Source of the DNA: Verrucomicrobium spinosum DSM 4136 = JCM 18804
GTDB lineage: Bacteria > Verrucomicrobiota > Verrucomicrobiia > Verrucomicrobiales > Verrucomicrobiaceae
Length of the DNA stretch: 64,000 nucleotides
Direction of reading: 5' to 3'
NCBI RefSeq assembly: GCF_000172155.1
Contig: NZ_ABIZ01000001.1
Coordinates: 4,249,105 to 4,313,104, forward strand
Positions 58,359 through 63,651 of the stretch are shown in pieces (position 1 is the first letter of the stretch; every line of letters starts with the position of its first letter). The notes under the pieces were generated by a model. It saw only the letters and a list, made by a program, of their open reading frames with translations, was not told where the DNA came from and made no database searches. Made by a program: the position numbers and the translations under genes.

Positions 58359-61300
58359 TCACGATACGGGGCGCTGTGCTCTCGCAAGCGCCAGTATTTC
58401 CTCGTCTGACAGTTGGGAAGGGCTGACAAGGGAGCGTGCCGCTTGCAGGCTGGTCACTGCGCCATCGCGGATGACGTAGAACTGCCCCGGCCCTTGTCCG
58501 GGCAATTTCGAGGCCACATCGATGCGCGCTTCGCTCAGCATGGGTTTCATTTTGGCCAGAGCGGTGGGCTCTTTCACACGCCCTACAAACCAGTTGCGGA
58601 TGTTGTCCTTGGCTTTGTAATCGAAATCACCGGGGCTCTGGGTGGCGAGGAACATCCCCAACCCTGCGGAACGAAAGCGCTTCAGGGCGTTTTCCATAGG
58701 CTCCTTGGTGGAGGGCTTGCTCGTGGCAGGCAGGTAGAGATCAGCCTCATCAAAGAGCAGGACGGCCTGGAGTTTGTCTGAAGGCTGCTTGCTCGCGTAG
58801 CGGTTCATCTCCTGCAAAAACTGCGAAATCCAAAACAGGAGCTTAACAGAGGAGTCGAAGAACTTGGTGCTGATGATCGTCAGCCGCGTTTTTCCGTGCG
58901 GCGAGTGAAAGAGCGATTCCGCGCTCAGTTTCTCCCCGCGCGCTTCCACGAGGTCGGCATTGCCCAGGCGAAGCGTCTCCAGATCCTGCACCAGCTTTTT
59001 GAAGTGTTTGGTGTCAAGGTATCCGATGGCGTTGATCAGCGTGGCATCCTCGTCATGGACGATGCCCAGGAGCTTGTCCAGACTCATGTCTGGGTGCACC
59101 TGTGCCAGCACACTGAGCGCCTTTTGGAGCACGACTGTCTTGGCGGCGTCATTGCCATTCGCTTTGTAGCCCATCATCCCGGCGAGGGCACCAGCGGTAT
59201 GTTTGGCCGCGATGTCTCGGTCTGCAGGCTTCATGTCGGCCAGCCCGTCTGGAATCATGGGCAGGCATAGAGGGCGTCCGTCATCGCGGCCCGGAGTATA
59301 GAGGGATACCTCGATCGACTCGCGCAATTTCGCGCGGCGCGCCTCTGCTTCTGGCGAGGGCAAGGGTTGTTGCCAGGCAGTCTCGCTGGCGTAGCTGCAC
59401 AGGTCTCCCTTGCGGTCGATGAGCACAGCGGGCACACCAGAGAGCAGCAGGCTCTCGATGAGGTTGAGCGCCAGCGTCGTCTTGCCACTCCCCGATCCAC
59501 CGAGAAAGGCGGTATGACGGGTGAGCTCCGCGTTGTCAATCGTGACCGGCGACGGGGACAGCTCCTTGGTCATGCCGAGCCACGAACGGCCTGCGGGCTG
59601 GATCACCAGACTAGCGGGAGCTGGCTCAGTAGGTGTAGTTTTATCCGGCTCAGCATCCACCCGGCCAGTGCTTCCAGACAGGACAGCCGGGACCGCAGGT
59701 GCCGCCGGGAGGTTGTGGAGGTTCAGAATCATGCTGACCGGCCGGAGTTTCGTCAGTGGCGTTTCACTAAGGAGCCATTCTGCAAATCCCTGGCGGGAGC
59801 CATGTCTGGCCACAAAGGTCTGCATGGCCGCCATGGCACGCCAGTCAGAATCTTCAACGATCGTGCGAGCTCCACCTTCAGCAATGAGTTCACCCAGTTT
59901 CTTGGCAATGACTGTACGAGGACTCTCTGGAAATGACGTGGTGCGAACGATGACACAACGCCGATCTTGATTTATGGCTCGCTCTCTTGCAGCAACTACA
60001 GCATTCCCCAATGCGCCACCTTGCGCTTTTTGATTGCAGAGGGTCACCAGCGTCCGGGAAATCACACGACCGCTGTTTTCCAGTTGCGTCGCGACCTGGT
60101 CCCCACCCGCGGACGCTTTGACCAACCAGCCCTTCCCAGGCAGTTCATTGGCGGCGTGGGTGAGTGCCGACGCCAGCAACCCTGTCATCTCCGCCTCGTG
60201 CTGAGGGAGCGGCTCGGAATAGGACGTGTAGTGATCATTCCACAATTGCTCAAGAACGAGTCCTTCAGATATGACGGGGGACACCTTTCCAGTCGCCCCT
60301 CCGATGTCTCCGGCATCCGTGTTCGCCACCACCGGCCGTTGACCATCCTGCTGGCTTCTCGCGCGCGCCTCCCGACAAAGGTCCAGCACCTTGCGAGCGC
60401 GAAATCCCTGAAGCTTTTCTGGCAAGTTGCCCGCGAAGGGATAGAGCGGCTCGCTCGCCACGATGTCCGCATCTGAGTCGTCAAAGAGATGCTCCAGACG
60501 TCGGGTAATGATCTTCTCGACTTCTGCGGCGGAGCGCCTGCCTGCCAGCCTTACGGGCTCAGGGCTTGTTTCAATGCGATCAAGCAGTGAATTCGTTAGG
60601 GACGGCTTGAGGTGGGAGTAGAAATCTTCAAGACAGGAGACTACGACAACCATGGACGGCACAGCATCAGTGAGCTCGCATACGATGCGCATGGCGGAGA
60701 GGAACCTCGTCTGGACGGGCAGGTTGAGCTCATACATGCCCTCCAACTGGTCCAGACAGACCACAAACGTGCTTTGCTCCAGGGCCCAAGCCAGTGCGGC
60801 CAAAGACCTGATGACCTCCCGGGGGCCTCCATCGCCGTGCAGAGGCGCAATGCCTCCCAGCTTTCGCAGATCATAGTCTGAGAGGGGCCGGCAGCGGAGA
60901 TACTGTAGAATAAGATTCTTCAATTCGGGCTCATCTCGCTGAAGCAGGAGCAGAACCCTGAGCAGATCGGGATGAATGTTCTGCACCTTGAGCCTGGCTA
61001 TCAGATAGTCGGAATACTCAAACACCCACGGCAGGTTCAGCTCCCCTTCCCGGAGAAACTGAAGCGCACCAGGCTCAAAGAGATCCCTGTCTTCCACGAG
61101 CGAGTTTGACAAACGTCGCAGGGCTGTCTGTTCTGAGATGTCGTCGTCATAGGGCTGGTTTAAGGAGTCAATGATGTTGGTCAGCACATACTGCTCGTAG
61201 TTGGCCTCACTGGAGGTCATCTGCATGTAGGTGAAGTACCCGCTGGCCTTCCGGGTGACTTCACTGCGGAAGGCGCGCATCAGATGGGTTTTGCCCGATC

Positions 61301-61514
61301 CCGCTTCCCCCAACAGCAGAAGAATTTTCCCGTAATGGAGCCCTGCCCCAACGCTGTTCATCACGCGGGCGAAGGCCGCCCTCGCCTCCTCATGCACTTC
61401 CGGTACGTCCATGATGTCGTGCCGGAAAATCTCATGCCGATGCACGATAGCGTGAAACAGTTCCGGGTGGCTGTTGGAGCAGAATGCCGTGAGTCGCGGG
61501 TCGGTGACGTTCAT
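58359..61514 (-). CDS. two-domain P-loop ATPase with HerA/DUF87-like C-terminal motor
   Basis: 1051 residues. The N-terminal ATPase (about 50-400) has Walker A GEAGSGKT at 69-76, an Asp-containing Walker B-like VVCLDQLEG near 251-259 and a predicted helical region. Residues about 420-620 show no recognised domain. The C-terminal part (about 650-1040) is a HerA/DUF87-like motor with GGSGSGKT at 672-679, VLLFDEADLYLP at 918-929 and the sensor-type LATQSPGDFDYKAKDNIRNWF. This arrangement, a regulatory ATPase joined to a DNA-pumping motor, is seen in several defence systems. It is the last gene of the three-gene cassette (18-base gap to the middle gene). Confidence 0.8.
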   Translation of the reverse strand: MNVTDPRLTAFCSNSHPELFHAIVHRHEIFRHDIMDVPEVHEEARAAFARVMNSVGAGLHYGKILLLLGEAGSGKTHLMRAFRSEVTRKASGYFTYMQMTSSEANYEQYVLTNIIDSLNQPYDDDISEQTALRRLSNSLVEDRDLFEPGALQFLREGELNLPWVFEYSDYLIARLKVQNIHPDLLRVLLLLQRDEPELKNLILQYLRCRPLSDYDLRKLGGIAPLHGDGGPREVIRSLAALAWALEQSTFVVCLDQLEGMYELNLPVQTRFLSAMRIVCELTDAVPSMVVVVSCLEDFYSHLKPSLTNSLLDRIETSPEPVRLAGRRSAAEVEKIITRRLEHLFDDSDADIVASEPLYPFAGNLPEKLQGFRARKVLDLCREARARSQQDGQRPVVANTDAGDIGGATGKVSPVISEGLVLEQLWNDHYTSYSEPLPQHEAEMTGLLASALTHAANELPGKGWLVKASAGGDQVATQLENSGRVISRTLVTLCNQKAQGGALGNAVVAARERAINQDRRCVIVRTTSFPESPRTVIAKKLGELIAEGGARTIVEDSDWRAMAAMQTFVARHGSRQGFAEWLLSETPLTKLRPVSMILNLHNLPAAPAVPAVLSGSTGRVDAEPDKTTPTEPAPASLVIQPAGRSWLGMTKELSPSPVTIDNAELTRHTAFLGGSGSGKTTLALNLIESLLLSGVPAVLIDRKGDLCSYASETAWQQPLPSPEAEARRAKLRESIEVSLYTPGRDDGRPLCLPMIPDGLADMKPADRDIAAKHTAGALAGMMGYKANGNDAAKTVVLQKALSVLAQVHPDMSLDKLLGIVHDEDATLINAIGYLDTKHFKKLVQDLETLRLGNADLVEARGEKLSAESLFHSPHGKTRLTIISTKFFDSSVKLLFWISQFLQEMNRYASKQPSDKLQAVLLFDEADLYLPATSKPSTKEPMENALKRFRSAGLGMFLATQSPGDFDYKAKDNIRNWFVGRVKEPTALAKMKPMLSEARIDVASKLPGQGPGQFYVIRDGAVTSLQAARSLVSPSQLSDEEILALARAQRPVS

Positions 61515-61532
61515 GAGAGGAAGCGCCCAAAA

Positions 61533-62429
61533 TTAATCAGTGCGGATAAAGTGAAAAGTTTCGCCGAGGTGATGGGTGGCCGAGCCAGCCACATCCGCTG
61601 GATTCATGGCTTCCACCAGGTCGGCCCGGCTCAGGCGCAGGCGAAGGGCCTGATTGGCTTCCACCAGCCGCCGCTTGAACTCCTGCTCGTCCACTGCGTA
61701 GGGTGATCCCAGTTGTTTCAGCCGCCGCCATAGGTGGGAGATGAAGACTTTGTTGTCTCCGAACCAGCCGGTCTCACTAGATCGCGCGGCTGCCAGCACT
61801 GTTTCAGCGAAGTCTGGCGCTGACCTCATCTCCTCGGAAGCAGGCTTTCCTTCTGGCCCTACCGGGTCAGGTGCTTGGACCATGCGATCCCCCACCCATC
61901 GCCGAAGGAGAGCAAGGCGCATCTCGGTAGAACCGCTTTTACGAGCCCCCACGGCTTTCCCGGCCAGTAAATCCAGAGCTTGTGTGGGCGTGGGCAGATC
62001 ACCAGTAGGGAGGTTGTACTCTCGCTTGACAATGCAGGCACGCAGCCCGTCAGATTTAGAGACATGTGCCTGCACCTTGGTAGAGGACGGCAACCCCAAG
62101 GCTTGGGCGGTGAGAATCCTATTTTTCAACTGCTCCCACCTCATCCCCTTTGGCAGTTCGAGTACTCCAAGAGAACCCAGCGCCGCAGACACCCCTGTCT
62201 CCGTGAGGGCGATACGCGACTTCCCCAGGCGAATAGCGACCTCCCTTTCAACCAAATCATGGGATTTCACCTCGAAAGCAAGCGCCAGTTCGGCCTTGGT
62301 CAACCGGCCCTCGAAAAGAGGCCATAGATCCTTTCTAACGGTGCTTGAGGTTTCACCCTTGCTTCTGTCGGCCACTACTAGCCGAATCAGAATGAGTTCA
62401 GAGAGAATGTCAGGATTCATGGGGTTCAC
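61533..62429 (-). CDS. cassette middle protein of unknown function
   Basis: 298 residues from a GTG at 62429, 5 bases after a TAGGAG site; an ATG 9 bases further in is an alternative. Predicted mainly helical, with DILSELILIRLVVADRSKG at the N-terminus and RKDLWPLFEGRLTKAELALA, which could be a winged-helix-like DNA-binding element. The central part has LALLRRWVGDRMVQAPDPVG, and the C-terminus ends KVFISHLWRRLKQLGSP and HHLGETFHFIRTD. No family was recognised. Its start overlaps the end of the nuclease gene by 20 bases, and the ATPase gene follows 18 bases downstream, indicating co-translation. Confidence 0.7.
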   Translation of the reverse strand: MNPMNPDILSELILIRLVVADRSKGETSSTVRKDLWPLFEGRLTKAELALAFEVKSHDLVEREVAIRLGKSRIALTETGVSAALGSLGVLELPKGMRWEQLKNRILTAQALGLPSSTKVQAHVSKSDGLRACIVKREYNLPTGDLPTPTQALDLLAGKAVGARKSGSTEMRLALLRRWVGDRMVQAPDPVGPEGKPASEEMRSAPDFAETVLAAARSSETGWFGDNKVFISHLWRRLKQLGSPYAVDEQEFKRRLVEANQALRLRLSRADLVEAMNPADVAGSATHHLGETFHFIRTD

Positions 62430-63651
62430 GCGGGCTCCTATAGCGAATTACACTAACAATTGCATCTAAAATATCTTCCAGACGTGTCACCACATCCGCA
62501 GCCAGAAAGCGAAGCACAAAAAAGTCGTGTTTTTGCAGCAGCACATCCTTTCGCCTGTCGCGCCGATAGGCATCCGCATCGGCAAAATGATGGTACCCGT
62601 CGATCTCTATGGCCAGCCCAGCATCCACTGCCAGCAAATCCACTTCGGCCCGTTGGTTCCCGAAAGTCACCGCCAGCCGCTGATTCAGGCGGAACTTGCC
62701 CCGGGTTTTGGGTAATCGTTCCAGCACCTCAAAGAGAAAGGACTCGGCGGCGCTGCGAGCCTCGTCCCCCTCCCTCGCTGATTCCCCCTTCTCAGGTTCC
62801 GCCACAGCTTGCTTCGCCAGTATTTGCAGTTGGGCAAGCTCTGACGACGACAGTTCACCGCCCTCGCGAGCGACGAATTCCAACGCCCGTCTAAGTCCAT
62901 TCTCTCTCCATGTGGCGCCCTCTGCAGCGGTGCAACTCGACCCTCGTTGGCCGGCTGCACTCGCCACCGCCACCAGTCCCTCACGCAAAAGAACTTCCCA
63001 GCGGGTAGCAATCTCACAAGCAGCCAGCGCAGCCACCTGCATTTCGCCCAGCGTCACAGCGACCGGAAGATGCGGCACGACTTCCGCAAACCGGCACAAT
63101 GCCTGCACATCCGCCGCCGCCACCTCCGTTCTTCCACTCTGCGGCAGCAGGAGCACGGCGGGCAACTTTTCAGAAGGCATGAGGCGGCCGAAGATCTTGA
63201 CGCAGGTCTCCAGGTCCCCGGTCAAGCGCAACACTTCACTCAGGAGATGCTCTGACTTCTGGGGACCCACACCATGGCGAAGGATGGTTTTGCAAACCTG
63301 CCGTTCGATTTCGTCCAGTTTCCCTGCGGTCACCCGGTCCAGAAACAGCCCCAACTCCATTTCCGTCTTATCCGCTAGAGCGGACGCCATCTGCTCCAGG
63401 TCGTCTCCCTTCAGTTGGGCCACGAAGGCTATGCACAACGGCAGAAGATAAGGCAGGTCCAGCAGGCAACCCACCCACTGGGCGGCCACCCGGCCTTCCT
63501 CAAAAGAATCGATGCAGACCACCGGCCGCCCGACACGCCGCCATGAAACAATCCACTGCTGATGTGCCTCCCGCACCCCTCCATGAAGCGCTGAAACCAT
63601 GGGTACGCCCTGGACTCTCCGCTTTTGGTGCAACTGAATTATTTGATCCAT
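62410..63651 (-). CDS. protein with C-terminal Vsr/DUF559-type nuclease domain
   Basis: 413 residues. The N-terminal 300 residues have no recognised domain. The C-terminal 110 residues are a PD-(D/E)XK-like nuclease of the Vsr/DUF559 type: an AESFLFEVL helix with E303, FRLNQRLAVTF, AEVDLLAVDAGLAIEIDGYHH with D338, E349 and D351, and AYRRDRRKDVLLQKHDFFVLRF. This motif order is typical of this endonuclease family. It is the first gene of the cassette, with an in-frame alternative start at 63600, and is followed by a 20-base overlap with the middle gene. The 349 bases upstream to the right edge hold no clear gene. Confidence 0.78.
   Translation of the reverse strand: MDQIIQLHQKRRVQGVPMVSALHGGVREAHQQWIVSWRRVGRPVVCIDSFEEGRVAAQWVGCLLDLPYLLPLCIAFVAQLKGDDLEQMASALADKTEMELGLFLDRVTAGKLDEIERQVCKTILRHGVGPQKSEHLLSEVLRLTGDLETCVKIFGRLMPSEKLPAVLLLPQSGRTEVAAADVQALCRFAEVVPHLPVAVTLGEMQVAALAACEIATRWEVLLREGLVAVASAAGQRGSSCTAAEGATWRENGLRRALEFVAREGGELSSSELAQLQILAKQAVAEPEKGESAREGDEARSAAESFLFEVLERLPKTRGKFRLNQRLAVTFGNQRAEVDLLAVDAGLAIEIDGYHHFADADAYRRDRRKDVLLQKHDFFVLRFLAADVVTRLEDILDAIVSVIRYRSPREPHES

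Follow-up and report, generated by a model that had tools for sequence, protein, structure and literature searches.

A winged-helix protein, a HerA-type ATPase and an exchangeable third gene: a predicted anti-invader operon in Verrucomicrobium spinosum

Does an operon that couples a nuclease to a HerA-type motor process the DNA of its own cell or defend the cell against foreign DNA, and, in the second case, what does the motor do for the nuclease? The question is raised by a three-gene cassette in a 64,000-nucleotide stretch of Verrucomicrobium spinosum DSM 4136 (hereafter the window, with positions counted from its first letter), which lies inside a single 8.22-Mb contig. An earlier sequence-only reading had described three minus-strand genes here, and the coordinates of the open reading frames (ORFs) within 58359-63651 agree with it: a nuclease gene of 413 aa (62410-63651) overlaps by 20 bases (62410-62429) a middle gene of 298 aa with a GTG start (61533-62429), which we call the adaptor, and this is followed after a gap of 18 bases (61515-61532) by an ATPase gene of 1051 aa (58359-61514). 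We consider it fairly probable that the three genes form one operon and a predicted system against phages or plasmids, built from a conserved two-protein core, the adaptor and the ATPase, and an exchangeable effector.

The corresponding three genes occupy the same chromosomal site in BvORR034, a Verrucomicrobium sp. of the same genus, with both flanks conserved. All three are under purifying selection in this comparison (dN/dS values: ATPase 0.164, nuclease 0.212, the two adaptor halves 0.156-0.179), which shows that they are real genes and not chance ORFs.

A conserved gene pair with an exchangeable third gene

Relatives were gathered by similarity to the ATPase alone, the middle gene playing no part in the collection. 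Screening 84,980 species genomes with a profile built from five ATPase sequences yielded at least 40 loci, to be taken as a sample, from which one weak case (L091) was discarded; the genome-scan loci, the window and four loci from a plasmid collection make up the 44 analysed. The expectation that the genes would be found together in other genomes held for the core: in 42 of the 43 loci that are not cut at that point an adaptor gene immediately precedes the ATPase gene, and the single exception (L056) has a frameshifted adaptor copy. These pairs span Verrucomicrobiota, Planctomycetota, Myxococcota, Alpha- and Betaproteobacteria and Actinomycetota.

The third slot is occupied by a DUF559 protein in 17 of the 44 loci. 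Elsewhere it holds a TIR protein with a ParA/CATASP protein (four loci: L070, L074, L076, L079), a DUF4365 protein with a protein of about 475 aa, together corresponding to the PADLOC candidates PDC-M02A and PDC-M02B (five loci: L064, L068, L069, L071, L086), an AIPR protein that matches AbiU (5e-113) and lies downstream of the ATPase (three loci: L075, L081, L085), or a caspase module (two loci: a caspase with EAD5-CHAT in L053 and a caspase-bDLD3 in L056). All five effector classes are members of known or candidate defence systems, and the EAD, CHAT and caspase parts are components of previously described conflict systems (Kaur et al. 2020). The ATPase tree (maximum likelihood, quick search, root unknown) divides at depth into a first clade, in which the window stands with myxobacteria, Nitrosomonas, Gemmataceae and Hyphomicrobiaceae, and a second, which comprises Actinomycetota and Methylobacterium. 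DUF559 occurs in both, the caspase modules are nested within the first clade and TIR, PDC-M02 and AbiU within the second, and the five effector types require at least five changes on the tree.

Such an exchangeable third gene points to a conflict system, in which the core would sense and license while the effector varies. The sequence-only reading had proposed a compact defence or DNA-processing system, and that proposal is supported by the co-conserved core, the intact domains and the swapping of conflict-type effectors; since TIR, AbiU, PDC-M02 or caspase modules take the place of the nuclease, we favour defence over DNA processing.

Domain make-up of the three proteins

The 1051-aa protein was examined in a predicted model (pLDDT 85). 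Two Walker A motifs, assigned by the earlier reading to an N-terminal ATPase and a HerA/DUF87-like motor, are both present (GEAGSGKT at residues 69-76, GSGSGKT at 673-679), and their G, K and T positions are invariant in 31 homologues. A whole-protein fold search gave matches that all fell in the HerA part, and the two domains that precede it were thus judged by sequence and secondary structure. The N-terminal P-loop NTPase (residues 38-390; 60345-61403, minus strand) is AAA_16/AAA_22/nSTAND-like, with Pfam matches to AAA_16 (6e-12), AAA_22 (3e-11) and nSTAND1 (6e-5) and a weak one to the ORC-CDC6-like PF24389 (0.007). Its Walker-B-like motif, DQ(L/I)(E/D), reads DQLE at residues 255-258; D255 and Q256 are invariant in the 31 sequences, as are R313 and R374. 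DQ motifs are found in STAND NTPases, which work as switches.

The motor domain (residues 640-1040; 58395-59597, minus strand) has the features that define the HerA/FtsK superfamily, namely the second Walker A motif, a DE Walker B (D922-E923), an arginine finger (R948) and a glutamine sensor (Q959), all invariant in 31 of 31 homologues and with a strand (952-958) between R948 and Q959. It carries an inserted helical bundle at about 763-869. Its structural matches extend over HerA, DndH and VirB4 (Z 25-31), with Sulfolobus solfataricus HerA (4d2i, Z 30.9) and the C-terminal domain of DndH (7es4, Z 30.6) among them, and include HerA-NurA and the SIR2-HerA and HerA-DUF4297 defence complexes.

Between NTPase and motor lies a domain (residues 417-600; 59715-60266, minus strand) whose predicted elements (H440-457, E463-470, E473-480, E483-492, H498-515, E519-524) follow the alpha-beta-beta-beta-alpha-beta order of the restriction endonuclease (REase) fold. 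No conserved D/E-x-K was found within it, and we read it as a putative inactive REase (iREase). Three helices follow the REase-like elements in the model (555-571, 577-584, 591-597), among which no winged helix-turn-helix (wHTH) was seen, the domain not having been fold-searched separately. TIM-barrel matches to this domain were rejected as composition noise.

The 298-aa adaptor, which the earlier reading had been unable to place, likewise matches no family in Pfam, NCBIfam or PADLOC. Its AlphaFold2 model (pLDDT 85) has an N-terminal winged helix (residues 6-88; 62166-62414, minus strand), a helical middle and a C-terminal winged-helix-like domain (residues 205-298; 61536-61817, minus strand); the last is drawn from predicted secondary structure and contains the most conserved motif of the family, DNKVFISHLWR...FKRRL.EA...L.LSRADLV.AM...V..S......TFHFIR. 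A PDB fold search with the model matched the N-terminus to PadR, MarR and RosR proteins (VIA Z 10-12, rmsd 1.6-4 over most of residues 1-90), and found no named relative of the C-terminal domain. The adaptor is best described as a putative winged-helix, DNA-binding-like protein. It is the fastest-evolving gene of the cassette between the two Verrucomicrobium strains (66.9% identity in its N-terminal half, against 90.4% for the ATPase), and in BvORR034 its N-terminal winged-helix unit is tandemly duplicated in one frame (L009:3-914 (-), L042:9509-10000 (-), with a contig end inside); both features fit what would be expected of the recognition part in an arms race. Calmodulin matches of the actinobacterial adaptor profile were set aside as composition noise.

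The effector of the window is a 413-aa protein whose first 290 or so residues have no family assignment and whose C-terminus is a DUF559 (Vsr/REase-like) nuclease domain (residues 300-402; 62446-62754, minus strand; Pfam E 4.5e-7); a profile search against the PDB matched the endonuclease-like protein 3hrl (E 1.9e-10). E303, N323, D338, E349, D351, H355 and D365 are kept in 17-18 of 18 related domains, and the three acidic residues named in the earlier reading, E303, D338 and E349, are conserved in 17 of 17, 18 of 18 and 18 of 18, as D351 and H355 are in 18 of 18 each. The operon of the window thus includes an REase that is predicted, from its conserved acidic residues, to be active. The same genome encodes elsewhere (L104:5490-8327 (+), C1 about 802489-805326) a 945-aa protein that combines a PrimPol primase (PADLOC 1e-83), an SF2 helicase and a C-terminal DUF559-type nuclease, the last with 53% identity to residues 296-406 of the window nuclease; it looks like a TOTE-type conflict protein that has its nuclease in common with the cassette.

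Licensing an effector or feeding a nuclease

From these parts we infer a mechanism in which the 1051-aa protein would assemble into a ring through its HerA motor, engage invading DNA and translocate along it. The N-terminal STAND/Orc-like NTPase would be a nucleotide-gated switch, its hydrolysis probably slow because a glutamine naturally occupies the position after the Walker B aspartate (+1). The winged-helix protein would recognise DNA, or a state of DNA, and couple the core to the effector. On triggering, the core would release or recruit that effector, in the window the DUF559 nuclease, which may then cut the invading DNA or else kill or arrest the infected cell. Taken further, the cassette would stand for a distinct and widespread type of modular immunity: one STAND-iREase-HerA protein would, together with its winged-helix adaptor, provide a universal DNA-sensing licence for unrelated effectors (nuclease, TIR, AbiU, caspase/CHAT), and HerA would be a sensor and not a nuclease-feeding pump; this broader proposal is tentative, and we place it a little short of evenly balanced.

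The main rival, as far as the version in the window is concerned, is precisely that the motor feeds the nuclease: in a machine like HerA-NurA or HerA-DUF4297 it would pump DNA into the DUF559 domain, and the wHTH protein would only help with loading. Motor and nuclease share one operon here, and the best structural matches are to the HerA-NurA, SIR2-HerA and HerA-DUF4297 complexes. However, the same motor and adaptor are kept with TIR and caspase/CHAT proteins, which are not expected to be fed with DNA, and NurA-type machines lack the STAND-like switch and the REase-like domain. Since the core is retained in loci where a TIR or caspase-type effector stands in for the nuclease, sensing and licensing is favoured over pumping, and we regard the feeding model as unlikely.

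A second alternative, which we judge no more likely than the first, is that only the DUF559 gene belongs with the core and that PDC-M02, AbiU, TIR-ParA and caspase-CHAT are separate defence systems that stand next to it by coincidence. PDC-M02, AbiU-like and CHAT/caspase proteins do stand as systems of their own in PADLOC, and in some loci the AIPR and caspase genes follow the core instead of preceding it. Yet these modules recur at the same position in several genera (five, four and three loci), exactly where DUF559 is missing, and their spacing is that of an operon, about 0-40 bases or overlapping in general; for TIR/ParA, PDC-M02 and AIPR the genes overlap by 4 bases or are 1-11 bases apart. 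In L070, for example, 1 base separates TIR from ParA and 7 bases ParA from the adaptor, which overlaps the ATPase by 4 bases, while 10 bases lie between ATPase and AIPR gene in L075. Nor would crowded defence islands explain the effector pattern, since matches to PADLOC are few among the 92 other flanking ORFs, with at most two for any one family.

A housekeeping or mobile-element role in DNA end processing, segregation or transfer is the least probable alternative: HerA/FtsK motors have such roles, both Verrucomicrobium strains carry the cassette at one site between metabolic genes and the Hyphomicrobiaceae pairs have no recognised effector, but the cassette is absent from 386 of the 388 Verrucomicrobiota genomes searched, has no consistent linkage to an integrase, relaxase or transposase, and is accompanied by effectors of conflict type.

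Several observations weigh against a licensing core for defence and have to be set beside the evidence for it. Twelve of the 44 loci have no recognised effector, five from Hyphomicrobiaceae and several actinobacterial ones among them; the cassette of the window is surrounded by metabolic genes, and known defence genes are not abundant in the flanks of its relatives. The iREase is read from predicted secondary structure, and sequence searches with this domain gave no REase relative. Whether the cassette keeps housekeeping company has a divided answer: in the window its neighbours are indeed metabolic, but its distribution is patchy, confined within Verrucomicrobiota to the two genomes of the genus Verrucomicrobium among the 388, and its relatives elsewhere sit in unrelated genomic contexts. 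Known HerA defence systems have one effector type per motor at a time, and the motor is generally assumed to translocate DNA on behalf of that effector. Here one conserved core stands with at least five unrelated effector classes, which offers a direct test of whether a DNA translocase can be a generic infection sensor. It also gives a functional context to two orphan families, that of the 298-aa adaptor and that formed by the N-terminus of the 1051-aa protein, and links the PADLOC candidate PDC-M02, as well as AbiU-like proteins, to what may be a control module.

Relation to known systems and genomic distribution

The sequence-only reading had found no named system with this architecture, and this stands in so far as no PADLOC system matches; the cassette is not without precedent, however, because it fits the HerA/FtsK capture systems predicted in 2024. 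In the main text of that computational study, the Orc/CDC6 class comprises an Orc/CDC6 NTPase, an inactive REase, an active REase, a HerA/FtsK motor, which may or may not carry a helical-bundle insert, and a wHTH, often with a rapidly evolving multi-wHTH protein in addition (Rakesh, Aravind and Krishnan 2024, PMC10853773). Measured against that description, the window has the HerA motor, with a helical-bundle insert and without an FtsK-alpha domain, the active-type REase and the wHTH protein, which is likewise fast-evolving; its P-loop NTPase, which may be of the Orc/STAND clade, and the putative inactive REase domain beside it would be two further points of likeness. It differs in that NTPase, REase-like domain and HerA form one polypeptide, that its active nuclease is a DUF559 protein, that no clear wHTH follows the REase-like domain, and that the effector slot also holds TIR with ParA, AbiU, PDC-M02 and caspase/CHAT; the main text of PMC10853773 mentions neither DUF559 nor caspase nor CHAT. 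The cassette probably works like the Orc/CDC6 class, as a variant of it; it is a real and co-conserved unit and probably represents an anti-invader system of a kind so far only predicted. In the full-text literature, subscription papers and preprints aside, searches for HerA combined with DUF559, DUF87, AIPR or DUF4365 found no description of the architecture, and a single-polypeptide AAA-iREase-HerA with such a range of swapped effectors was not found in what was accessible.

Other systems are less close. DndFGH/DptFGH share the motor fold (the DndH C-terminal domain) and a multi-wHTH partner, DndG; the 1051-aa protein lacks the SWI2/SNF2, TRD and inactive methylase domains, and the three window proteins have no Pfam or NCBIfam match to the DndF, DndG or DndH families (for the ATPase, among its best 25 matches). 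HerA-SIR2 (Nezha) and HerA-DUF4297 also pair a HerA-type motor with a separate effector, but in the window a STAND-like NTPase and an REase-like domain are part of the motor's own chain, the set requires a winged-helix protein as its third member, and neither SIR2 nor DUF4297 serves as the effector. HerA-NurA likewise joins motor and nuclease, whereas here DUF559 stands in place of NurA (to which the three proteins have no Pfam or NCBIfam match), there is an extra core gene, the effector is exchangeable and the distribution patchy. The best PADLOC match of the cassette is a partial one to the MADS ATPase mad8 (E 1e-22), limited to the motor domain; the operon has no methylase or other MADS component, and PADLOC finds no mad component in the nuclease and adaptor genes. 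BREX-Related Capture (BRC) systems resemble the cassette in bringing an Orc/Cdc6 ATPase, a wHTH protein, a HerA/FtsK motor and a nuclease effector into one neighbourhood, but their PglZ, DUF6079, DUF4007 and separate STAND NTPase were not found in it (PMC12839542).

Upstream of the operon a sigma-70-like promoter was sought and none found, and an Rfam scan gave no match. Viral contigs and phage records yielded no relative of the ATPase, while the plasmid collection contained full operons in Tsukamurella, Nonomuraea and Methylobacterium and a truncated copy in Xanthobacter. In the last, on plasmid pXAUT01 (L050:6605-9365), the ATPase ends after the NTPase domain and adjoins an IS3-type transposase. 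Five metagenome-assembled genomes of Hyphomicrobiaceae (L055, L057, L058, L061, L063) carry both core genes, the adaptor being longer and no gene in the vicinity being recognisable as an effector; they may represent a two-gene system with another use.

Several candidates were rejected as relatives. An 818-aa HerA-type ATPase that is widespread in Verrucomicrobiota (L041:5653-8109 (-)) belongs to a different family, since it is related in the motor only (26-32% identity) and lacks the N-terminal NTPase, and the likeness of two ORFs of 1023 and 1035 aa (L043, L044) is confined to the region around Walker A. Weak adaptor hits in three genomes of one Verrucomicrobiota genus (G228, G050, G087) are nitrogen-regulatory P-II (NifI) proteins that share a GDGKIFIS motif by chance, and a hit on a Pseudomonas plasmid (H5, E 0.3) was not counted. 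Nor were three single cases counted as effectors: a TerD/AIM24 protein (L087), a CBS-domain protein (L080) and a pPIWI-RE protein (L081), the gene of which immediately precedes that of the adaptor in Saccharothrix obliqua (L081:4389-7106 (+)). The ATPase of this species reads in two overlapping frames, through either a frameshift or a sequencing error. In Tsukamurella tyrosinosolvens (L048:2924-12987) the cassette stands together with a VapBC pair and a DEAD helicase between the ribosomal genes rplN and rpsQ.

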